Shown here one piece after another: positions 34,226 to 44,709 of a stretch of 64,000 nt of DNA. This DNA comes from Coriobacteriaceae bacterium (GTDB lineage Bacteria > Actinomycetota > Coriobacteriia > Coriobacteriales > Coriobacteriaceae): positions 124,001 through 188,000 of the forward strand of contig SUUG01000011.1 of NCBI GenBank assembly GCA_015062655.1, written 5' to 3'. The stretch's first letter is position 1. Each line of letters begins with the position of its first letter. A model generated the notes under the pieces. The model made no database searches. It saw only the letters and a list, made by a program, of their open reading frames with translations, and was not told the DNA's origin. The translations under genes and the position numbers were made by a program.

Positions 34226-34254
34226 CGAACACCTGTTTGCGTCGATGCTATACT
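34226..34254 (+). promoter_or_regulatory. SOS-box-like promoter of the TerB-domain/ATPase operon
   Basis: CGAACACCTGTTTG (34226-34239) fits the Gram-positive LexA pattern CGAAC-N4-GTTYG without mismatch. It occupies the -35 position, and TATACT (34249-34254) is the -10, with the start codon 38 bases further on. The arrangement matches the uvrA promoter within 1 bp. Confidence 0.65.
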
Positions 34255-34291
34255 GAGGGGATCGACGGCTCGGTGACGGGAGGGGGGAAGC

Positions 34292-36124
34292 ATGGACGAC
34301 GGCCGGCCGCGGGCGCGGCGCCTGATCGACGCCATCGTGGGCAGCGAGGCGATCCGCGAGAGCTCGCATTTCTCGGAGCGCATCGCGAACGGGGAGCCGA
34401 TCCTCACGACGGGCCGGCAGATGGCGAGCTACCTGCCCGAGCGCTACACCGAGATGCGCTCCATCTCGCGGTTCCAGCTCGGTGCGGACGGCCGCGGGCG
34501 CTGGCTGCCCGAGGCGGAGCACTTCCACCAGCAGGCCCTCTTCATGCAGGACTGGGAGGACGACTGCCCCTACCGCGGAACCTTCAAGAGCTACTACCCC
34601 ACCTACAACGCCATGAGCGACCGCCAGCTGCGCGGCTACTTCACCTGGCGGGCCCGCGTGCGGGCGGGCGATGTGGAGGAGACCTCCCCCTCCTTCGCCT
34701 TCGTCTACGTCTACGAGCTGCTCTCGGGCGTGGGCGTGGGCGTCGCCGAGGAGGGCTTCCGGCAGCTGCGGTGGTTCTGGCGCGCCTGGCAGGCCATCTC
34801 AGACGACCTCGACCGCCACATGCCGGTCTGGCTCCTCGACTACTGCGTCTACCACGGGCTCGATCCCGAGCTCGTCGCAGATCTCGGCGCCGTGGCGCAC
34901 GAGCGCGCGCTCGGCGAGCTCATCGCGTCCACTGAGAAGGCGGTGGCGCTGCTGCCCGCGCGCGGCGCCGGGCGCAAGGCGGACGGCGTGCCGCCGCTCG
35001 GGGACGAGCTCGAGGAGCGCCTCTTCCGCACCCTCGACGGGCTCTCGAGCTACCGGATCGCCCGCAGCCGCCTCGCCGCCGAGCACGGCGCCGACCTCCG
35101 CCATGTGGCCTGCGCCGTCTACCTCAGGCTCTTCGAGCACCATCGCGCCCATCGCAAGCTCGGGCTCATCGAGGGCATGTTCGGCCAGGTGATGGAGCTC
35201 CCCTACACGATGTTCGCCTCGGCGATGTTCTTCGACCCGCACGCCCATGCCGACACGGTGTACGAGGTCGGGCCCCTCAGGCGCTACCGCTGCCAAGACG
35301 GCCTGTGGACCTGCGCGCGCCCGCACGGCAAAGGCGGGCGGTCCGGCGAGCTCGGCCGCGCCCTGCGCGCCGTCGACCAGCGCCTGCGCGACGCCCTCGG
35401 CTTCCCCCGCCCCCTGAAGGAGGACGAGGGGCTGCCCAAGTACCTCGCCCGCATCATCGACGCGGAGGTGGCGGCCCGCCTTGCCTGGTCCGAGGCGAGG
35501 CGCCCCGTGGTGCTCGACATCGACCTCGGCCGGCTCTCCGGCATCCGCAGCGCCGCGGCCGAGACCCGCGAGGCCCTGCTCATCGACGAGGAACGCGAGG
35601 ACGGCTCAGACGAGGGGGCCGGGGCGCGGGAGGCATCCCCTGCACCGCCGGAGGAGCGGGCGGGCGACGGGTCGGGGGCGGTCGGCGCCGACGGCGGCGG
35701 GCAGGCGGCAGGAGGCCTGCTCGGACCCGCGCACGCGGGAGGTGCGGATCCGCGGAGCGCGGTGTCTCCCGGCCGCGCCGATGCGGGGCGCACCCGGGAT
35801 CCAGCTGCCGGGCCCGCCTGGACCCCGGCGGGCCCGGCCGCGCCGACAGGCGACGAGGGCGGCACCGCCCTCGCAGAAGACGCGGACACCGCGCTCTCCC
35901 CCGCCCTGGCCTCGTACCTGCGCGCCCTGCTCGCGCACGATGCCGCGGCGGCCGAGGCCGCCCTCAAAGAGGGGGCGCTGACGGAGGACCTCGCGGTCGA
36001 CGCCGTCAACGAGGCCCTCTTCGACCTGCTCGGGGACACCGCCCTCGAGTTCGGCCCCGAGGGCCCCGCAGCCATCGAGGATTACCGTGAAGACCTGGAA
36101 AGGATCGTGAACGATGCCGACTGA
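34292..36124 (+). CDS. TerB-N/TerB-C domain protein
   Basis: This 610-residue soluble protein has a TerB-N-like domain at about 60-230, with the signature run FHQQALFMQDWEDDCPYRG then YNAMSDRQLRGYFTWRARVR. A central helical part follows. The C-terminal TerB-C-like region (about 330-440 and 550-610) is interrupted by a Gly/Ala/Asp/Pro-rich, probably disordered insert near 440-545. These domains are known from ter-related stress networks and have been placed next to BREX-type ATPases and helicases in other bacteria. The molecular function is unknown. GGAGGGGGGAAGC precedes the ATG. It overlaps the ATPase gene by 11 bases. No signal peptide or membrane helix is seen. Confidence 0.85.
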   Translation: MDDGRPRARRLIDAIVGSEAIRESSHFSERIANGEPILTTGRQMASYLPERYTEMRSISRFQLGADGRGRWLPEAEHFHQQALFMQDWEDDCPYRGTFKSYYPTYNAMSDRQLRGYFTWRARVRAGDVEETSPSFAFVYVYELLSGVGVGVAEEGFRQLRWFWRAWQAISDDLDRHMPVWLLDYCVYHGLDPELVADLGAVAHERALGELIASTEKAVALLPARGAGRKADGVPPLGDELEERLFRTLDGLSSYRIARSRLAAEHGADLRHVACAVYLRLFEHHRAHRKLGLIEGMFGQVMELPYTMFASAMFFDPHAHADTVYEVGPLRRYRCQDGLWTCARPHGKGGRSGELGRALRAVDQRLRDALGFPRPLKEDEGLPKYLARIIDAEVAARLAWSEARRPVVLDIDLGRLSGIRSAAAETREALLIDEEREDGSDEGAGAREASPAPPEERAGDGSGAVGADGGGQAAGGLLGPAHAGGADPRSAVSPGRADAGRTRDPAAGPAWTPAGPAAPTGDEGGTALAEDADTALSPALASYLRALLAHDAAAAEAALKEGALTEDLAVDAVNEALFDLLGDTALEFGPEGPAAIEDYREDLERIVNDAD

Positions 36125-37427
36125 CCGCACGCCCGCGGCGCCCCGCGTCCCCAAGCGCGTGGCCGCGACCGTCCTGAACTCCCTCAAGGGCGGCGTGGTG
36201 CCGCGCATCGGCCTGCCCTACATCACCGTGGGCCGCGAGTTTGAGATCCGCGCCCTGCTCACCGACCTCGACCTGATCCGCGAAGGCGGGGCGAGCTTCC
36301 GGTTCCTCGTGGGCCGCTACGGCGCCGGCAAGAGCTTCCTGTTGCAGACGATCCGCACCCATGCCATGGGCGAGGGCTACGTGGTGGCCGACGCCGACCT
36401 CTCCCCCGAGCGCCGCCTCCAGGGCGGTCAGGGGCAGGGGCTCGCCACCTACCGGGAGCTGATCCGCAACCTCTCCACCAAGACGCGGCCGGAGGGCGGG
36501 GCGCTCAGCCTCGTGCTCGACCGCTGGGTGGCCGCCGCACCCGAGCGAGCGGGCGCCGAGGAGGCCGTGTCGGGCCTCACCGAGCTCGTGCACGGGTTCG
36601 ACTTCTCCCGCATGCTCCTGCGCTACTGGGAGGCCTCCCAGGAGGGCGACGACGAGACCCGCTCCGCCGTGCTGCGCTGGCTGCGCGGCGAGTACCGCAC
36701 GCGCACCGAGGCCAAGGGGGACCTCGGCGTGTCGGTCATCATCGGCGACGGCGACTGGTACGACTACGTGAAGCTCTTCGCCGCCTTCCTCGTGTCCGCC
36801 GGCTACCGGGGCCTGCTCGTCCTCATCGACGAGCTCGTGAACCTCTTCAAGATCCCCAACGCCGTCACGCGCCAGTACAACTACGAGAAGATCCTCACGA
36901 TGTACAACGACACCCTGCAGGGGAAGGCCCGCCACCTCGGCATCATCATGGGCGGCACCCCCACCTCCATCGAGGACCGCCGACGCGGCGTCTTCTCCTA
37001 CGAGGCGTTGCGCAGCCGACTCACCCAGGGGCGCTTCGCCACCGAGGACATGCGGGACATGCTCGCGCCCATCATCCGCCTTCATCCGCTCACCCACGAG
37101 GAGCTGCTCGTGCTCATCGAGAAGCTCGCCGAGATCCACGCGGGCTACTTCGGCTACGCGGTGCACCTCACCGAGCAGGACCTCGTGGCGTTTCTGCAGA
37201 TCGAGTTCTCGCGCGTCGGCGCCGACACGCACCTCACGCCGCGCGAGGTGATCCGCGACTTCATCGAGCTGCTGGACATCATGTACCAAAACCCTGAGGC
37301 GGCCATGGAGGAGCTTCTGCGCGGGCAGGTGGCCGGCGACGCGGGCGGGCAGGACGGCGTGGGCAGGCAGGGCCCCTCGTCGGGCACGGCCACAGGGACG
37401 CGCGACTTCGCCGAGTTCACCCTGTAG
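36114..37427 (+). CDS. BrxD-like P-loop ATPase (DUF2791 family)
   Basis: This 437-residue ATPase has Walker A FLVGRYGAGKSFLLQ near residue 65 and Walker B GLLVLIDELVNLF near residue 235. A sensor-like IIMGGTPTSIED follows, and its later segment PREVIRDFIELLDIM is typical of the DUF2791 (BREX system ATP-binding) family. BrxD of type 2 BREX is the best-known relative. The C-terminal ~40 residues are Gly-rich and end DFAEFTL. The gene begins 11 bases inside the TerB gene, with AAAGGA before its ATG, so both proteins should be made together. It converges on znuB with a 9-base gap. Interaction with the helicase at 42247 is inference. Confidence 0.88.
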   Translation: MPTDRTPAAPRVPKRVAATVLNSLKGGVVPRIGLPYITVGREFEIRALLTDLDLIREGGASFRFLVGRYGAGKSFLLQTIRTHAMGEGYVVADADLSPERRLQGGQGQGLATYRELIRNLSTKTRPEGGALSLVLDRWVAAAPERAGAEEAVSGLTELVHGFDFSRMLLRYWEASQEGDDETRSAVLRWLRGEYRTRTEAKGDLGVSVIIGDGDWYDYVKLFAAFLVSAGYRGLLVLIDELVNLFKIPNAVTRQYNYEKILTMYNDTLQGKARHLGIIMGGTPTSIEDRRRGVFSYEALRSRLTQGRFATEDMRDMLAPIIRLHPLTHEELLVLIEKLAEIHAGYFGYAVHLTEQDLVAFLQIEFSRVGADTHLTPREVIRDFIELLDIMYQNPEAAMEELLRGQVAGDAGGQDGVGRQGPSSGTATGTRDFAEFTL

Positions 37428-37436
37428 GCGAACGGG

Positions 37437-38276
37437 CTATCGAGCGGCGGCGTCCTCGCGCGCCGGATGCGCGAGGCGGCGCATGATGCCCCTGACGAGG
37501 AGCAGGAGCAGCAAGATCCCCACCTCCACGAGCACGATGGCGCCGCCGGGGCGCAGGCCCGCGTAGAAGGAGAGGGTGAGGCCCGCGAGCGACGACACGG
37601 CGCCCACCGCGCAGGCCACGACGACGCTCTGGCGCCAGCTCCGGGCGACGGCGAGCGCCGCGGCCACGGGCACCGTCATCATCGAGCTCACGATCAGCGA
37701 GCCCACGGTCCGCGACGCGATGGAGATCGTGAGGGCGCACACGAGCACGAAGGCGGCGTTCACGAGCCCCGTGCGCACGCCCGCGAGCCGTGCGGCGCGC
37801 TCGTCCAGGGCGACCCAGAAGAGCTCCCGGGCGAGAAGGGCGCAAAAGAGGATGACCGCGGCGCCGACCCCGACGACCACGGCGAGCTCGGCGTCGCCCA
37901 CCGTCACGATGCTTCCGAACAAAAAGCTCGAGAACGTCGCCGAGTTGGGGACGAACCCCGAGAGCACGCCGGCGAGGCCGATGCCCGCGGCCATGATGAC
38001 GGCCACGGCCAGATCTGCCCGGGCGGGCATGGCGCGGCGGATCCCCTCGATGCAGAACGCCGAGGTCACGCAGGCGGCGACGGCACCGGCGACCGGGTTG
38101 AGGCCGGCGATGAGCCCCGCCGCCACACCGGCAAGCGAGGCGTGCCCGAGGGCGTCGCCGATCATCGAGAGGCGCTTGAGCACCACCGTGACGCCCACGA
38201 GGGGCACCGCGATGCCGATGACGAGACCGGCCGCGAGGGCGCGCTGCATGAAGGCGTAGTGGAGCATCTCAGGCAT
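37437..38276 (-). CDS. znuB: Zinc ABC transporter permease ZnuB
   Basis: This 279-residue membrane protein of the ABC-3 (metal ion) permease family has about eight helices. LKRLSMIGDALGHASLAGVAAG at about residues 33-55 is the family core motif. SGFVPNSATFSSFLFGSIVTV and the segment VGSLIVSSMMTVPVAAA also fit. It imports Zn2+ delivered by ZnuA. AAGGAG lies five bases before the ATG. It overlaps the znuC stop by 8 bases and is the last gene of the four-gene fur-znuACB unit. Mn2+ as substrate is possible, but the His-rich ZnuA favours zinc. Confidence 0.92.
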   Translation of the reverse strand: MPEMLHYAFMQRALAAGLVIGIAVPLVGVTVVLKRLSMIGDALGHASLAGVAAGLIAGLNPVAGAVAACVTSAFCIEGIRRAMPARADLAVAVIMAAGIGLAGVLSGFVPNSATFSSFLFGSIVTVGDAELAVVVGVGAAVILFCALLARELFWVALDERAARLAGVRTGLVNAAFVLVCALTISIASRTVGSLIVSSMMTVPVAAALAVARSWRQSVVVACAVGAVSSLAGLTLSFYAGLRPGGAIVLVEVGILLLLLLVRGIMRRLAHPAREDAAAR

Positions 38277-39012
38277 GGGTCTCCTTAAGATCCCGCGCCG
38301 TGGCGTGGGCGTGGGCCGGACCGGGAACGGCGGGCACGAGGCGCCCCGCCTCCAAGCGGTGGAGCGTGGCGTCCAGGCCAGCGAGCCGCTCGAGGTCATG
38401 GGTGACGAGCAGCACCGCGAGCTCGGGACGGGCGCGGCGCAGATCGGCCAGAAGCTCCTCGAAGCTGCGCGCGGCCCGGGCGTCGAGGCCGCTCGTGGGC
38501 TCGTCGAGGACGAGCAGGCCGGGCTCGCAGACGAGCGCCCGCGCGAGCAGCACGCGCTGGAACTGCCCACCCGACAGCTCGCCGATCATACGCCGCTCGA
38601 ACCCGGCGAGATCAACCGCGGTAAGGGCCCGATCGACCGCGGGGGCGGTGCGGGAGCGCGCGCGGAAGCGCGGCAGCGAGGGGCGGCGGGCGTAGAGGTT
38701 CGCCTCCACCACCTCCCGCACCGAGGCGGGGAAGCGCTCGTAGGGAACGTCGGTGCGCTGCGGGACGTATCCCACCCGGCCCCAGTCGCGAAAGCGAACG
38801 GGGTCGGCACCGAAGATACGCACCTGGCCGCTTTTCGGCCTCAATTCGCCCAGGATGAGCCGGAGGAGGGTGGACTTGCCGGCGCCGTTCTCGCCCGTGA
38901 CGACAGCGAGCTCGCCGGCACGCACGGTGAGCGAGGCGCCCTCGAGGATCGCCTCGCGTCCGTGCGCGTACGCGACCCCCGTGGCCTCAATGACCGTCTC
39001 GCGATGCTCCAT
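38269..39012 (-). CDS. znuC: Zinc ABC transporter ATP-binding protein ZnuC
   Basis: This 247-residue ATPase has Walker A TGENGAGKSTLLR near residue 40, Q-loop VGYVPQRTDVPY (a metal-importer-type sequence), signature ELSGGQFQRVLLARAL, Walker B GLLVLDEPTSGLD, and switch His in VLLVTHDLERLA. It drives the ZnuB channel. The GAGGGTAGAG run serves as ribosome site. It begins 40 bases after the znuA stop. Confidence 0.93.
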   Translation of the reverse strand: MEHRETVIEATGVAYAHGREAILEGASLTVRAGELAVVTGENGAGKSTLLRLILGELRPKSGQVRIFGADPVRFRDWGRVGYVPQRTDVPYERFPASVREVVEANLYARRPSLPRFRARSRTAPAVDRALTAVDLAGFERRMIGELSGGQFQRVLLARALVCEPGLLVLDEPTSGLDARAARSFEELLADLRRARPELAVLLVTHDLERLAGLDATLHRLEAGRLVPAVPGPAHAHATARDLKETHA

Positions 39013-39052
39013 CCCGCTCTACCCTCGCCGTGAGGTCGACAAACCCGCCATG

Positions 39053-40129
39053 TCAGCCGAGCGCGGCGACGAGGGCCTTCAGGTTCTGGCGCATGAGGGA
39101 GAGGTAGTCCTCGCCGGCGCTCTCCTGCTCCTGCGTGAGCCCCTCGATGGGGTTCAGGACCTGGCAGGAGGCGCCCGTGGCGTCCGCGATCGCCTGGGCG
39201 ACCTTCGGGCTCACGAGCTCCTCGGTGAAGATGGTCTTGATGCCGCTCTCCTTCACGAGATCGATGATCTCGGCCATGGTCCTCGCATCGGGCTCGCCCT
39301 CGGCGTCGATGCCCGTGATGGCACGCTGCGTGAGGCCGTAGGCGTCGCAGAGATAGCCGAAGGCCGCATGGCTCACGACGATCGTCTTGTTGGGCAGCGG
39401 CTCCAGCGCGGTGCGGAACTCCTGATCGAGCTCATCGAAGGCGCGGGCGTGCTCCTCGTAGGCGGCATCGAACTGCTCGGTGTGCTCGGGGTCCACGGCG
39501 GCCAGGCCGTCGCGGATGGCGGCGAGCTCCATCTTCGCGTTGGCGGGCGCGAGCCACACATGGGGGTCGTGGCCATCGTGATCGTGATCGTGGTGGTCAT
39601 GGTCATCGTGATCGTGGTCATCGTGATCGTGGTCATCGTGATCATGGTCATCGTGATCGTGGTCATCGTGATCGTGATCGTGGTCATCGTGATCGTGATC
39701 GTGGTCGTGCTCGCCAACGAGGAGCTCGATGCCCTTCGAGGCCTCGACGACCTTGGCGGTGTCGAGGTCGGAGACGACGTCCTCGACCCAGTGCTCCATG
39801 CCGGCCCCGTTGTACACGAAGAGGTCGGCGGCTTTCAGGTCTTCGATATCGCGTGGGCTCGGCTCCCAATCGTGGGGCTCGGTGCCCGCGGGCACGAGGT
39901 CGGTCACACTCACGAGGTCACCGCCGACCTTCTTGGCGAAATCGCCCATGACGTAGAAGCTCGCGACGACCTTGATGCCGGTATCCGAGCCGGCGTCCGA
40001 GCCGGCAGGCGCGGCAGGGCCGGAACCCGCGCAGCCGGCGAGGAGGGCGCCGCCCGCGGCGGCGAGACCGGCGGCGAGAACCTGGCGGCGAGAGGGATGG
40101 GACAGGTTGGGGGTGTTGGCATCGCTCAT
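39053..40129 (-). CDS. znuA: Zinc-binding lipoprotein ZnuA with expanded His/Asp-rich loop
   Basis: This 358-residue cluster A-I binding protein has a signal with twin arginine (SRRQVLAAGLAAAGG) and lipobox LAGC, so it may be a Tat-exported lipoprotein. Zinc ligands are GTEPHDWEPSP (first His), DPHVWLAP, VVSHAAFGYL, and a late Glu/Asp (TIFTEELVSP). Between the first two lies an exceptionally long loop of alternating His-Asp (about residues 143-187, over 40 residues), encoded by a DNA tandem repeat. Such loops are thought to collect Zn2+. The gene overlaps fur by 4 bases (ATGA) and so is translationally coupled. Confidence 0.95.
   Translation of the reverse strand: MSDANTPNLSHPSRRQVLAAGLAAAGGALLAGCAGSGPAAPAGSDAGSDTGIKVVASFYVMGDFAKKVGGDLVSVTDLVPAGTEPHDWEPSPRDIEDLKAADLFVYNGAGMEHWVEDVVSDLDTAKVVEASKGIELLVGEHDHDHDHDDHDHDHDDHDHDDHDHDDHDHDDHDHDDHDHHDHDHDGHDPHVWLAPANAKMELAAIRDGLAAVDPEHTEQFDAAYEEHARAFDELDQEFRTALEPLPNKTIVVSHAAFGYLCDAYGLTQRAITGIDAEGEPDARTMAEIIDLVKESGIKTIFTEELVSPKVAQAIADATGASCQVLNPIEGLTQEQESAGEDYLSLMRQNLKALVAALG
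39577..39710. repeat. Tandem repeat encoding the ZnuA His/Asp loop
   Basis: About nine near-perfect copies of a 15-bp unit (GTGGTCATCGTGATC), with 6-bp GTGATC half units between, encode HDHD-type repeats in ZnuA. Length could vary by slippage between strains and in assembly. Confidence 0.9.
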
Positions 40130-40587
40130 TTGTGGCGCTCCTTCTTGCTCGTCTCAGTGGGCGCGGCGGCGTGGGCGGAGGACTCGCGGCAGTCGGGGCA
40201 GACGCCGTGGAGGACGGTGTGCGCGGGATCGATGGCGAAGCCGTGCTCGACGAGCACGTGCTCCGCGAACGCCCCCAGGCTGCTGCAGCTCAAGGGCAGC
40301 ACACGGCCGCAGCGGTCGCACCTGAGCTGTCCCTCGACGTCCTCAGGGTCAACCGCCGGCGCGAGGCGGTACTGGGCCGCCCCGCCGCGGATGTCGGCAA
40401 CCTTGAGCATGTCCCCCTCGGAGACCATCCGCTCGAGCGTGCGGTAGACCGTCGTGCGGCCGACCTCCATGCCGTGGGCACGCAGCAGCTGCCCCACCAT
40501 GTCGACGCTCAGGAAGGTGTCCTCGTGGTCCGCCATGACAGCGAGGATCGATTGCCGTTGCCTGGTGTCATACGAACCCCGCGCCAT
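40126..40587 (-). CDS. Fur-family metalloregulator, probably Zur
   Basis: This 153-residue protein has a winged helix (SVDMVGQLLRAHG, then VGRTTVYRTLERM) and a dimerisation domain with two CxxC pairs (CDRCG, CPDCR) for structural zinc. Sensor ligands are HVLVEHGF and HTVLHGV. Its position as the first gene of an operon with znuACB argues for zinc sensing. It likely represses its own promoter (see 40601-40658). The start MARGS has GGGAG five bases upstream; an ATG four codons earlier lacks a site. A C-terminal Lys/Glu-rich tail overlaps the znuA start. Confidence 0.9.
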   Translation of the reverse strand: MARGSYDTRQRQSILAVMADHEDTFLSVDMVGQLLRAHGMEVGRTTVYRTLERMVSEGDMLKVADIRGGAAQYRLAPAVDPEDVEGQLRCDRCGRVLPLSCSSLGAFAEHVLVEHGFAIDPAHTVLHGVCPDCRESSAHAAAPTETSKKERHK

Positions 40588-40600
40588 CTCCGCTCCCATC

Positions 40601-40658
40601 TGAGAATTGGATTTCAATTTCAGATTGAGACTATACCACGCCCTGAGTGCCCGCGCAA
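40601..40658 (-). promoter_or_regulatory. Promoter and candidate Zur operator of fur-znuACB
   Basis: On the minus strand TTGCGC (40658-40653) and TATAGT (40635-40630) are 17 bp apart. Downstream of the -10 lies the imperfect dyad TGAAATTGAAATCCAATTCTCA (40622-40601) with paired AATTG/CAATT half-sites, a plausible Fur/Zur box over the transcription start. Confidence 0.65.
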
Positions 40659-40687
40659 GACGGCCCGCCGCCAGGATGGGGGCTCCC

Positions 40688-42079
40688 TCACGCCCGCGGG
40701 ATGCCCAGGCGCTCCGCAAGGTCGGGGTTCACGGTGACGAGATCGTCCACCGAGAGCTCGCTGATGCGCTCATGGCCCATCACCCGGCAGAACATCTTGA
40801 GATCGTCGAAGGTCGCCCGGTAGAAGTTCTCCACGCGCTGCGCGGCGGCGTCCCAGCCCCTCCTTTCGCGGAGCTCCGGATCTTGCGTGGCGATGCCCAC
40901 GGGACACATGCCGCTGCCGCAGATGCGGTACTGCTGGCAGCCGAGGGCCATGAGCGAGGCCGATGCGAGCGCCACCGCGTCGGCGCCGAGCGCGAGCGCC
41001 TTGACGACATCGGAGGCCACGCGGAGACCCCCGGTGATGACGAGGCTCGCTCGCGAGCCGAGCGCATCGAGGCGCCGGCGGGCGCGCACGAGGGCGTACA
41101 TGGTGGGCACCGATGCCGCGTCGCGCAGCATCACGGGGGAGGCGCCGGTCGCCCCGCCGCGCCCGTCGATCGTGATGAAGTCAGCGCCGGCGGCGTGGGC
41201 CCGGTCGATATCGCGCTCGATGTGCCCGGCGGCCAGCTTGATGCCAACGGGCGCCCCGCCGCTGCGCTCGCGCATCTCATCGACGAGGGCGCGCAGATCC
41301 TCGACGGACTCGACCCCCGGGAAGGTGGAGGGCGACACGATGTCCTCCCCCGGCTGCCGGCCGCGGATGCGGGCGATCTCCTCGGTGACCTTCTTTCCGG
41401 GGAGGTGGCCGCCCATGCCCGGCTTGGTTCCCTGGCCGATCTTGATCTCGATCGCGTCAGCGGCGCGCAGGCTCTCGTCGCTCACGGAGTAGCGCAGCGG
41501 CGCGATCTCGAAGATGTAGCGCGTTGAGGCCTCGCGCTCCGCGGGGAGGATACCGCCCTCACCCGAGCACATGGCCGTGCCGACCGCGGAGGCGCCGCGG
41601 GCGAGGGCTACCTTGGCCTCGGCGGAGAGCGCACCGAAGGACATATGGGACACGAACACCGGCCCCTCGAGCGTGAGCGGGCGCGCGGCGGACCCGCCGA
41701 TCGTGCAGCTGATATCCACCTCGGCGTCCTCGGCGAGCGGCATCGGGTCGAGCTGGGCGCCGAGGACGAGGATGTCCTCCCATGCGGGCAGCGGCAGCGT
41801 GGTGGCCATCGCGCCGTCCGGGGCGCGCCCGTTCTCGGCGAGCTCGTGGATGGTCGACAGATGGCGGATCGACGGATCAAAGCGACGGAGCTCGGCGGGG
41901 ATGGCGAGCGGGCCCTCCTCGGCCTCGCCGGAGGGCTCAGCGGACGCCTCCTCCTCCAGTGGGATGAACTGCGCGGCCGGCGTGCCGCACATCGGGCAGG
42001 CGTCGAGCTCGGAGAGCGGGGCGCCCTCCGCCTCCTCGTCGTAGACCCAACCGCACATAGGACATTGGTACCTCGTCAT
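40688..42079 (-). CDS. Rubredoxin-fused glutamate-synthase-like FMN/Fe-S protein
   Basis: This 463-residue protein starts with a rubredoxin (YQCPMCGWVYD...CPMCGTP, two CxxCG pairs at residues 5-35) and a linker. A GltS-alpha-type TIM barrel follows: SHMSFGALSAEAKVALARGA, IKIGQGTKPGMGGHLPGKKV, TIDGRGGATGASP, and a 3Fe-4S-type cluster segment CQQYRICGSGMCPVGIAT near residue 400. It has neither the N-terminal amidotransferase domain nor a beta subunit nearby, so it is not a complete glutamate synthase. The rubredoxin suggests it receives electrons directly. GAGGGGAG precedes the ATG. It is divergent from the Lhr-like helicase. The substrate is unknown. Confidence 0.88.
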   Translation of the reverse strand: MTRYQCPMCGWVYDEEAEGAPLSELDACPMCGTPAAQFIPLEEEASAEPSGEAEEGPLAIPAELRRFDPSIRHLSTIHELAENGRAPDGAMATTLPLPAWEDILVLGAQLDPMPLAEDAEVDISCTIGGSAARPLTLEGPVFVSHMSFGALSAEAKVALARGASAVGTAMCSGEGGILPAEREASTRYIFEIAPLRYSVSDESLRAADAIEIKIGQGTKPGMGGHLPGKKVTEEIARIRGRQPGEDIVSPSTFPGVESVEDLRALVDEMRERSGGAPVGIKLAAGHIERDIDRAHAAGADFITIDGRGGATGASPVMLRDAASVPTMYALVRARRRLDALGSRASLVITGGLRVASDVVKALALGADAVALASASLMALGCQQYRICGSGMCPVGIATQDPELRERRGWDAAAQRVENFYRATFDDLKMFCRVMGHERISELSVDDLVTVNPDLAERLGIPRA

Positions 42080-42206
42080 AGCTGCTCCCCTCTTGTGTCG
42101 ACACCCATAGCGTAACGCTGCGGAACCTCGTTGCCTCCGAGTTTTCGGCGATAGGCGTCATCCGATTCGGAATCGGCTGGCCTCCTCCCCGCTCCTGTGC
42201 TAATAT

Positions 42207-42229
42207 AGAACACGTGTTCGTAGTATACC
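42207..42229 (+). promoter_or_regulatory. SOS-box-like palindrome before the Lhr-like helicase
   Basis: AGAACACGTGTTCG (42207-42220) contains a perfect 12-bp palindrome GAACACGTGTTC and differs from CGAAC-N4-GTTCG at one end base. Candidate -10 elements are TAATAT (42201-42206) or TATACC (42224-42229). The ATG lies 26 bases downstream. Confidence 0.6.
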
Positions 42230-42246
42230 ATACGTTGGAGGTGAAG

Positions 42247-44709
42247 ATGGGGGTCTTCGATCGGTACGCGCCCTTCGTGCAAGATTTCATCTACAGCAAC
42301 GGCTGGGAGAGCCTCCGGAGCATCCAGGTCGCCGCCGCCGAGGCCGTCTTCGAGAGCGATGACAACATCCTGCTCACCGCCTCCACCGCCTCCGGCAAGA
42401 CCGAGGCCGCCTTCTTCCCCATCCTCACCGAGTTCTGGGAGCGCCCGCCCGCGAGCGTGGGGGCGCTTTACATCGGCCCGCTCAAGGCCCTCATCAACGA
42501 TCAGTTCCTGCGCCTGAACGATCTCTGCGAGGAAGCCCGCATCCCCGTTTGGCACTGGCACGGCGACGTCTCGGCCTCGCATAAGGCGCGCCTGCTCAAG
42601 CGGCCGAGCGGCATCCTCCAGATCACGCCCGAGTCGCTCGAGGCCCTCCTGCTGCACCGGCACAGCGCCGTGCCCCGCCTCTTCTGCGACCTGCGCTACG
42701 TGGTGATAGACGAGGTCCATTCGCTGCTGCGCGGCGACCGCGGGGGTCAGGCCCTGTGCCTCATCGAGCGGCTCTCACACATGGCCGGGGTCAACCCCCG
42801 CCGCATCGGGCTCTCCGCCACCGTCGGCGACCCGGTGCGCACCGGCGCCTTCCTCTCCCGGGGCACGGGGCGCGGCTGCGTGATCCCCCGCTTCGAGGCT
42901 GAGGGCCGGCGCACCTGGCGCCTCTCCATGGAGCATTTCTACATCAGCGGCCCGCAGGCGCCCGAGCGGGCGGCAGCGGGCGGAGGGCCCGTGGCCGCCG
43001 ATGTGGTTTCCGTTGAGCGCGTGGACGGCGCGCCCTCCGTCGACGACCTGCTCAAGCAGGCGTACGCCGAGGGCGATGGGACGCGGCCGCTCGCGCCCCG
43101 GGGAGCGGGGGCCGGGGCACAAGACGCGCATCCCGCGACACCGAAGGAGGGCCAGCCGAGCCCGGAGCCCGTCGACATCCCCGCGGCCGATGACGCCGCC
43201 CTGCTCTCACCCACCGACGCCGCGCCGCGCGACGCCGATCCGGGCATCGGCTACATCTTCGAGCGCACGCGCGGGGCCAAGTGCCTCGTGTTCTCGAACT
43301 CGCGCGAGGAGGCTGAGGCCGTCTGCTCCATGTTGCGCAGCTACTGCGAGGCCAACCACGAGCCCGACCGCTTCCTCATCCACCACGGCAACATCTCGTC
43401 GAGCTTTCGGGAAGCAGCCGAGGAGCTCATGCGGGATCCTGATCGTCTCGACACCACGGTCACCACGGCAACCCTCGAGCTCGGCATCGACATCGGCCGG
43501 CTCGAGCGCGCCTTCCAGATCGATGCGCCCTTCACGGTCTCAAGCTTCCTGCAGCGCATGGGGCGCACCGGGCGGCGCGGGCGCCCTCCCGAGATGCACT
43601 TCGTCATGCGCGAGGAGCAGCCCGAGCCGCGCTCGCTCCTACCTGAGACCATCCCCTGGAAGCTCCTGCAGGGCATCGCCCTCGTCCAGCTCTACCTCGA
43701 AGAGCGCTGGGTGGAGCCGCCCGAGCTCGACCGCCTGCCCTACAGCCTGCTGTACCACCAGATCATGGCGATCCTGGCGAGCACCGGGGAGCTCTCGCCC
43801 GCCGAGCTCGCAGGCCGCGTGCTCAACCTGAGCTACTTCCATCGCGTATCGGCCGATGACCTGAGGACGCTCCTGCGCCACCTGATCGAGACCGATCAGA
43901 TCGAGCAGACCGAGAGCGGCGGCCTCATCGTGGGGCTCGCCGGCGAGCGCGTCACCAACTCGTTCAAGTTCTACGCCGTGTTCCAGGAGAACGAGGAGTT
44001 CACCGTGCGCTCCGAGAGCGCCGAGCTCGGCACCATCGTGAACCCGCCGCCGGCGGGAGAGCGCATCGCCATCGCCGGGCACTGCTGGGTGGTCGAGGAG
44101 GTCGACTGGAAGCGGCACCTGGTTTACTGCACGCAGGTCAAAGGCCGGGTCCCCGCCTATTTCGGCGATGTCGCCGGATCGGTGGACACGCACGTCCTCG
44201 AGCGGATGCAGCGCGCGCTGGCCGAGCACGCGGCGTACCCCTACCTGCTCGGCAACGCCCGGGCGCGGCTCGCCCACGCACGGCACGTCGCGGCGAACGC
44301 GCGCATCAGCGGGGCGGGGTCCTGCCCGCTCATCAATATCGGGGGAGACTCCTGGGCGCTCTTCCCTTGGCTCGGGAGCTACGCCTTCCTCGCGCTGGAG
44401 CGCCTCATCAAGATCAGATGCGGGCGTCGGCTGGGGCTGCGCGCGCTCGACCCCTCGCGGCCCTACTTCATGCAGCTGCGCCTCTCGCCCGAGATCGGGC
44501 CGCAGGAGTTCTTCGAGATCCTCGCCGAGGAAGCCGAGAGACCCTTCGACCCCATCGAGCTCCTCTACCCCACCGAGGTGCCCTACTTCGACAAATACGA
44601 CACCATGCTTCCCGAGAAACTCGTGAGGAAGGGCTTCGCCGAGGCCGTCCTCGATATCGAGGGCATGCGGGCACGCGCCCTCGAATGGCGGGACCGCTTC
44701 TGCGGGTGA
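42247..44709 (+). CDS. Lhr/BrxHI-like superfamily 2 DEVH helicase
   Basis: This 820-residue helicase has motif I TASTASGKTEAAFFP near residue 50, motif Ia GPLKALINDQ, motif II VVIDEVHSL near 155, motif III GLSATVGDP and motif IV LVFSNSREEAEA. Later motifs are HHGNISSSFR, TATLELGIDIG and LQRMGRTGRRGR. A Gly/Ala/Pro-rich insert lies near residues 245-335. After the core is a winged-helix and a C-terminal domain ending with FFEILAEEAERPF. Best relatives are Lhr-type and BREX BrxHI helicases. Its promoter has an SOS-like box like the TerB operon 8 kb upstream. GGAGG is 6 bases before the ATG. It is a monocistronic unit. Confidence 0.88.
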   Translation: MGVFDRYAPFVQDFIYSNGWESLRSIQVAAAEAVFESDDNILLTASTASGKTEAAFFPILTEFWERPPASVGALYIGPLKALINDQFLRLNDLCEEARIPVWHWHGDVSASHKARLLKRPSGILQITPESLEALLLHRHSAVPRLFCDLRYVVIDEVHSLLRGDRGGQALCLIERLSHMAGVNPRRIGLSATVGDPVRTGAFLSRGTGRGCVIPRFEAEGRRTWRLSMEHFYISGPQAPERAAAGGGPVAADVVSVERVDGAPSVDDLLKQAYAEGDGTRPLAPRGAGAGAQDAHPATPKEGQPSPEPVDIPAADDAALLSPTDAAPRDADPGIGYIFERTRGAKCLVFSNSREEAEAVCSMLRSYCEANHEPDRFLIHHGNISSSFREAAEELMRDPDRLDTTVTTATLELGIDIGRLERAFQIDAPFTVSSFLQRMGRTGRRGRPPEMHFVMREEQPEPRSLLPETIPWKLLQGIALVQLYLEERWVEPPELDRLPYSLLYHQIMAILASTGELSPAELAGRVLNLSYFHRVSADDLRTLLRHLIETDQIEQTESGGLIVGLAGERVTNSFKFYAVFQENEEFTVRSESAELGTIVNPPPAGERIAIAGHCWVVEEVDWKRHLVYCTQVKGRVPAYFGDVAGSVDTHVLERMQRALAEHAAYPYLLGNARARLAHARHVAANARISGAGSCPLINIGGDSWALFPWLGSYAFLALERLIKIRCGRRLGLRALDPSRPYFMQLRLSPEIGPQEFFEILAEEAERPFDPIELLYPTEVPYFDKYDTMLPEKLVRKGFAEAVLDIEGMRARALEWRDRFCG

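Follow-up and report, generated by a model that had tools for sequence, protein, structure and literature searches.

Shango is a three-gene anti-phage system composed of a TerB part, an ATPase and a helicase (PMC10250203). The Shango of PA14 protects Pseudomonas aeruginosa PAO1 against several phages, and the system was also reported in E. coli (PMC10250203). A published tree places its helicase SngC with BrxHI, DruE and DpdJ (PMC12278908). We found neither a mechanism for Shango nor a paper linking it to LexA in the open-access literature.

Related machinery is known from other settings. BREX type 2 contains an ATPase, BrxD, and a helicase, BrxHI, that are homologous to those of Shango. In mycobacteria, DNA damage induces the repair helicase Lhr (PMC11323726). 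CapW/BrxR, CapH+CapP and CapK+CapS defence operons are likewise immune genes turned on by DNA damage (PMC13373217). They rely on dedicated local regulators, whereas the apparent repressor of the locus described here is LexA of the host.

This locus encodes the same three proteins as the Shango of P. aeruginosa PA14 and E. coli, all of them top HMM matches. Published Shango was defined as three neighbouring genes within a defence hotspot; here sngC is displaced, the system looks core and vertically inherited, and both transcription units carry predicted LexA boxes, a form of control that we did not find reported for published Shango. Shango as an anti-phage system is already known. What is new here is its regulatory and genomic arrangement.

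Gene content of the locus

The window is the whole 64,000-nucleotide stretch of DNA that was analysed. Its positions 34226–44709 hold a complete Shango system, physically split into sngA–sngB and, 4.8 kb downstream behind five opposite-strand genes, sngC. The features are as follows, with the evidence in brackets.

34226–34239, + strand: predicted LexA (SOS) box CGAACACCTGTTTG over the -35 of the sngAB promoter (sequence, conservation in relatives)
34246–34254, + strand: extended -10 TG-C-TATACT of the sngAB promoter (sequence, spacing kept in relatives)
34292–36124, + strand: sngA, TerB_N and TerB_C protein of 610 residues (Pfam and PADLOC)
36114–37427, + strand: sngB, P-loop ATPase of 437 residues (PADLOC, Walker motifs)
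37437–42079, - strand: block that splits sngB from sngC, outside the Shango system (Pfam)
about 37437–38279, - strand: znuB (Pfam ABC-3)
38269–39012, - strand: znuC (Pfam ABC_tran)
39053–40129, - strand: znuA (Pfam ZnuA)
40126–40719, - strand: Fur-family regulator, fur (Pfam FUR)
40688–42079, - strand: rubredoxin/glutamate-synthase-like protein, gltS (Pfam Glu_synthase)
42198–42206, + strand: extended -10 TG-C-TAATAT of sngC (sequence)
42207–42220, + strand: predicted second LexA box AGAACACGTGTTCG, 26 bp 5′ of the sngC start codon (sequence; genome pattern match C10:166208; conserved at separated sngC)
42247–44709, + strand: sngC, SF2 DEAD/DEAH helicase of the Lhr/BrxHI type, 820 residues (PADLOC, helicase motifs)

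ZnuA carries a long His/Asp-rich repeat (HDHDHDD...), typical of the zinc-binding loops in ZnuA proteins.

Gene sngA encodes a protein with TerB_N (1.5e-28) and TerB_C (1.4e-12) domains in Pfam, and its top match among the PADLOC profiles is SngA (1.6e-64, residues 45–605). The sngB product matches BrxC_BrxD (PF10923, formerly DUF2791) at 511 bits. These profile searches bear out all three domains that a sequence-only reading of this DNA had proposed, and the 11-base overlap of the two genes that it described is found exactly, at 36114–36124. Its assignment of the ATPase to BrxD does not hold. The PADLOC score is 573 bits for SngB and 139 bits for BrxD, and the NCBIfam BrxD model gives 139.9 bits, missing its cut-off of 350. 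The sngC product likewise scores 876 bits with SngC and 403 bits with BrxHI.

The homology of SngB and SngC to BrxD and BrxHI might suggest that the locus is a stand-alone fragment of BREX type 2, a BrxD–BrxHI remnant. However, the HMM scores prefer SngB and SngC by hundreds of bits, and the partner is a TerB protein. As the sequence-only reading had also expected, no match to PglZ (PF08665) occurs in the whole genome, a draft that is 98.7% complete. The absence of PglZ shows that this is not BREX, and a BREX remnant is hardly credible.

The same reading had taken sngA and sngB for a stand-alone unit, overlooking sngC. In favor of a TerB–ATPase pair that works without the helicase, the two genes overlap or lie end to end in almost every Coriobacteriaceae locus, as the claim of a conserved pairing had anticipated. 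Against it, the genome also has sngC, whose regulation matches, and in many relatives the three genes form one uninterrupted set. We therefore consider a two-gene unit highly improbable. SngA-, SngB- and SngC-family proteins are all present by the PADLOC profiles, by which we assign the locus to Shango. The usual layout, three adjacent genes in one operon, is absent here, and we do not treat it as defining. A defence or DNA-processing role is plausible as proposed, with the unit being the three-gene Shango and not the pair. Overall, what had been observed in the sequence was confirmed and its interpretation survived in part, the pairing, the LexA control and the lack of PglZ standing while the BrxD identity and the stand-alone pair fell.

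The box at the sngAB promoter

The -10 element of sngAB is TATACT (34249–34254), extended by TG at 34246–34247. It is separated by a 17-bp spacer from the -35 element CGAACA (34226–34231), which falls inside CGAACACCTGTTTG. The CGAAC-N4-GTTTG pattern that had been claimed over the -35, with TATACT as -10, is thus exactly in place.

Pattern searches, on which the box counts for this genome rest, found CGAAC-N4-GTTYG at three sites genome-wide, namely 28 bp upstream of recA, at the sngA promoter and in a phage-like gene cluster. The last site (L002:1501–1514) is inside an apparent prophage structural gene cluster. Because a reversed control pattern occurs 8+7 times in the same genome, the box at the sngA promoter is, in this genome alone, only about a 1-in-1000 event for a promoter. 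It is the conservation across promoters that decisively makes the case for this predicted box being beyond chance. The exact CGAACN4GTTTG is present in 48 of 81 distinct sngA promoters, versus 5 occurrences at other places in these loci, which total 1.59 Mb. In the promoters of relatives, the box and an extended -10 (TG-N-TAnnAT) keep a near-constant spacing while the N4 and the flanks diverge. The box recurs across the Coriobacteriaceae although SngA identity is only about 45–50%. It was found in 52 of 57 non-Atopobiaceae loci and in 1 of 17 Atopobiaceae loci; the latter figure counts against our main model of a Shango under LexA.

The host has the regulator to match. In this genome lexA is located at C14:80457 with three boxes in its promoter, and the recA promoter carries CGAACGGATGTTCG. 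Among the relatives, lexA was found in 30 of 30, always with boxes of the RAACN4GTTY type in the lexA promoter, and the proximal lexA box is often CGAACN4GTTTG, the form found at sngA. We judged membership of the LexA regulon by the presence of LexA and of a host-type box, and such a box is found at both the sngA and the sngC promoters.

A second box at the displaced sngC

The second predicted box is directly behind TGCTAATAT, and the same order of TGCTAATAT and box is seen in several relatives. Genes were counted as separated sngC when the separation exceeded 240 bp. A box is present upstream of 27 of 39 separated sngC genes versus 3 of 34 contiguous ones (Fisher 9e-8). The difference persists when SngC is clustered at 90% identity (19/23 versus 3/18, p 3e-5) or at 85% (7/9 versus 2/12, p 0.008). 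Elsewhere in the loci, such sites occur at a background rate of 0.005 per 271 bp.

The rule was tested on further sngC genes, one split from sngB (G177) and four located elsewhere in the genome (G160, G078, G064 and G168). All five have a box, 34–66 bp before the matched start; four of these tests were fully blind, and the G177 box had already been visible at the edge of an earlier stretch. In G160, G078 and G064, sngC is on a different contig from sngB. In G168 (L254; 97% complete), sngC has its SOS box and SngB was not found, which may be a loss of sngB or an assembly gap. About a third of the separated sngC genes have no strict box in the scanned stretch, which again counts against the main model. 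Some of these box-less calls come from an ORF start called too far upstream; L063/G175, for instance, does have a box.

Three layouts were seen at sngC. The box follows the -10 in the window, precedes an extended -10 in L060 and G064, and is between TTGCAA and TATACT in Atopobiaceae. The three arrangements suggest that the separate sngC boxes reflect repeated selection for SOS control, rather than one inherited site.

Could the boxes be ordinary promoter sequence instead of LexA sites? In this genome alone, the reversed control pattern turns up just as often as the box pattern, as such a reading would have it. However, the position of the box is conserved over diverged promoters with a variable N4, the boxes are identical with those of lexA, and they recur at the displaced sngC and at 5/5 follow-up loci, so that this explanation is very unlikely. 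Control by LexA, which had been predicted for the sngAB pair as DNA-damage control, has strong comparative support for sngAB and sngC in the conserved sngA box, the boxes on displaced sngC and the lexA boxes of the same form.

Distribution, descent and neighbourhoods

SngB was found in 64 of 67 Coriobacteriaceae genomes, and in 58 of the 59 that are at least 90% complete. Shango is therefore core gene content in this family, not a mobile island. The named relatives with the system are Collinsella, Enorma, Olsenella and Thermophilibacter. Outside the Coriobacteriaceae, SngB is present in part of the Atopobiaceae and in single Eggerthellaceae-like genomes; elsewhere in the phylum it is sporadic, with mostly weak BrxD-like matches. 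The distances of SngB and SngC track those of rpoB (Mantel r 0.85 and 0.88, p 0.001). Only 9 of 15 (SngB) and 8 of 16 (SngC) well-supported splits are common to the rpoB tree, which makes some exchange likely in the history inferred for the two proteins.

The order of the trio is kept across Coriobacteriaceae and Atopobiaceae, and the genes are contiguous in C. aerofaciens and many relatives, whereas C. phocaeensis and C. tanakaei have a separated sngC. In many Atopobiaceae, sngA is also apart from sngB. The distance between sngB and sngC varies from an overlap to over 7 kb, and the genes between them are metabolic and vary by lineage. We considered the gap as a site for defence cargo and rejected this; other gaps hold FeFe hydrogenase, an NMT1/ABC transporter, S-layer, MFS, dehydrogenase or PIN protein genes. 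A MAG labelled Atopobiaceae (L057:8381–18847) has a Thermophilibacter-like sngA (89%) and sngC (94%), and its sngB–znuBCA–fur–gltS stretch has 95–98% DNA identity to the window. This mosaic reflects recombination across families or else a chimeric assembly.

The sequence-only reading had advised a check for phage-defence islands around the homologues. The neighbourhoods examined consist of housekeeping genes with no defence island, and ten neighbour genes scanned with PADLOC gave no convincing match. A defence system would not usually be found in nearly every genome and next to housekeeping genes, and we count this against the main model.

These data raise the possibility that the Shango of Coriobacteriia is a domesticated repair module, serving chiefly in SOS genome maintenance like Lhr or MrfA/YprA, with its anti-phage activity secondary or lost. 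Its near-universal occurrence in step with rpoB, its SOS boxes of the lexA/recA type, its housekeeping flanks and the kinship of SngC with Lhr and YprA all agree with such a role. Three observations speak against it. SngA evolves much faster than SngB and SngC, which fits a conflict-driven subunit; the relatives in Pseudomonas and E. coli were anti-phage when tested (PMC10250203); and large numbers of Shango copies reside on conjugative plasmids. A role chiefly in repair is possible, and we regard it as doubtful.

The plasmid copies also bear on the regulation. A clear host-type box was not seen in the plasmid Shango of Klebsiella, Salmonella, Sulfitobacter, Azospirillum and Paenibacillus peoriae; the one box match in Sulfitobacter, 20 bp before the start, is weak evidence. 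In the plasmid Shango of Paenibacillus cellulositrophicus, a perfect SOS-type box, CGAACGTGCGTTC (L204:4070–4083), immediately precedes TATAAT at 160 bp upstream of sngA. The SOS wiring is thus a property of the lineage, outside the definition of Shango. On the Sulfitobacter plasmids (L238:2444–11164), Shango is followed directly and in the same direction by PD-(D/E)XK nuclease and UvrD-like helicase genes, which are AddAB-like.

The proteins and a proposed mechanism

The Walker A motif GRYGAGKS and the acidic Walker B DE of SngB are kept across Coriobacteriia and distant plasmid relatives, and the SF2 helicase motifs of SngC are invariant in a family alignment of the same breadth. SngB has no sequence match among solved structures. 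The nearest solved relatives of SngC are the repair helicases Lhr (5v9x, 7lhl) and YprA/MrfA; unlike them, SngC forms a PADLOC family of its own and has SngA and SngB as partners.

SngA is the fastest-evolving part, with about 45–50% identity versus about 75% for SngB and SngC. Its AlphaFold model is mostly confident (mean pLDDT 81), and neither PDB sequence search nor Foldseek returned a confident relative. The TerB_C part (about residues 534–610) aligned to LysR winged-helix domains, covering 73 residues at 3.1 Å with Z values reaching 6.8; the similarity may be no more than a common arrangement.

A mechanism can be proposed from these features. LexA bound to the box over the sngAB -35 and to the box beside the sngC -10 would hold down the expression of both units as long as the cell is undisturbed. 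Broken DNA or stalled forks, caused for example by phage replication, prophage induction or genotoxins, would lead to RecA filaments and these to the self-cleavage of LexA, so that SngA, SngB and SngC would be produced together. The three most likely form one DNA-directed complex, in which the SngB ATPase and the SngC helicase would load onto DNA that is foreign or damaged and remodel it; SngA, the fast-evolving subunit, may recognize the target or adapt the complex to it. We consider it probable that this whole model is right, that is, a split core Shango in the LexA regulon whose parts are induced together and function in a single DNA-directed complex. The locus is best read as encoding a DNA-acting ATPase–helicase machine that would be made on demand after RecA activation, and from this SOS signal we infer an anti-phage effect in this host.

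Significance of the arrangement

Detection tools that demand adjacency of the genes may overlook systems that are split, like this Shango. RecA/LexA becomes a candidate trigger for the system, and defence would here be tied to SOS directly via LexA, not through dedicated local regulators. That a gut family keeps Shango near-universally, with each split piece under predicted LexA control, suggests that SngA, SngB and SngC cooperate and that cells need them upon DNA damage.

Tentatively, a defence family may have become a domesticated part of the core SOS regulon across an entire bacterial family, serving genome maintenance besides or instead of phage defence. If this is true, Shango would bridge anti-phage helicase systems and DNA repair of the Lhr/MrfA type, and selection for LexA control would have been strong enough to place SOS boxes on the separated pieces after the operon broke up.
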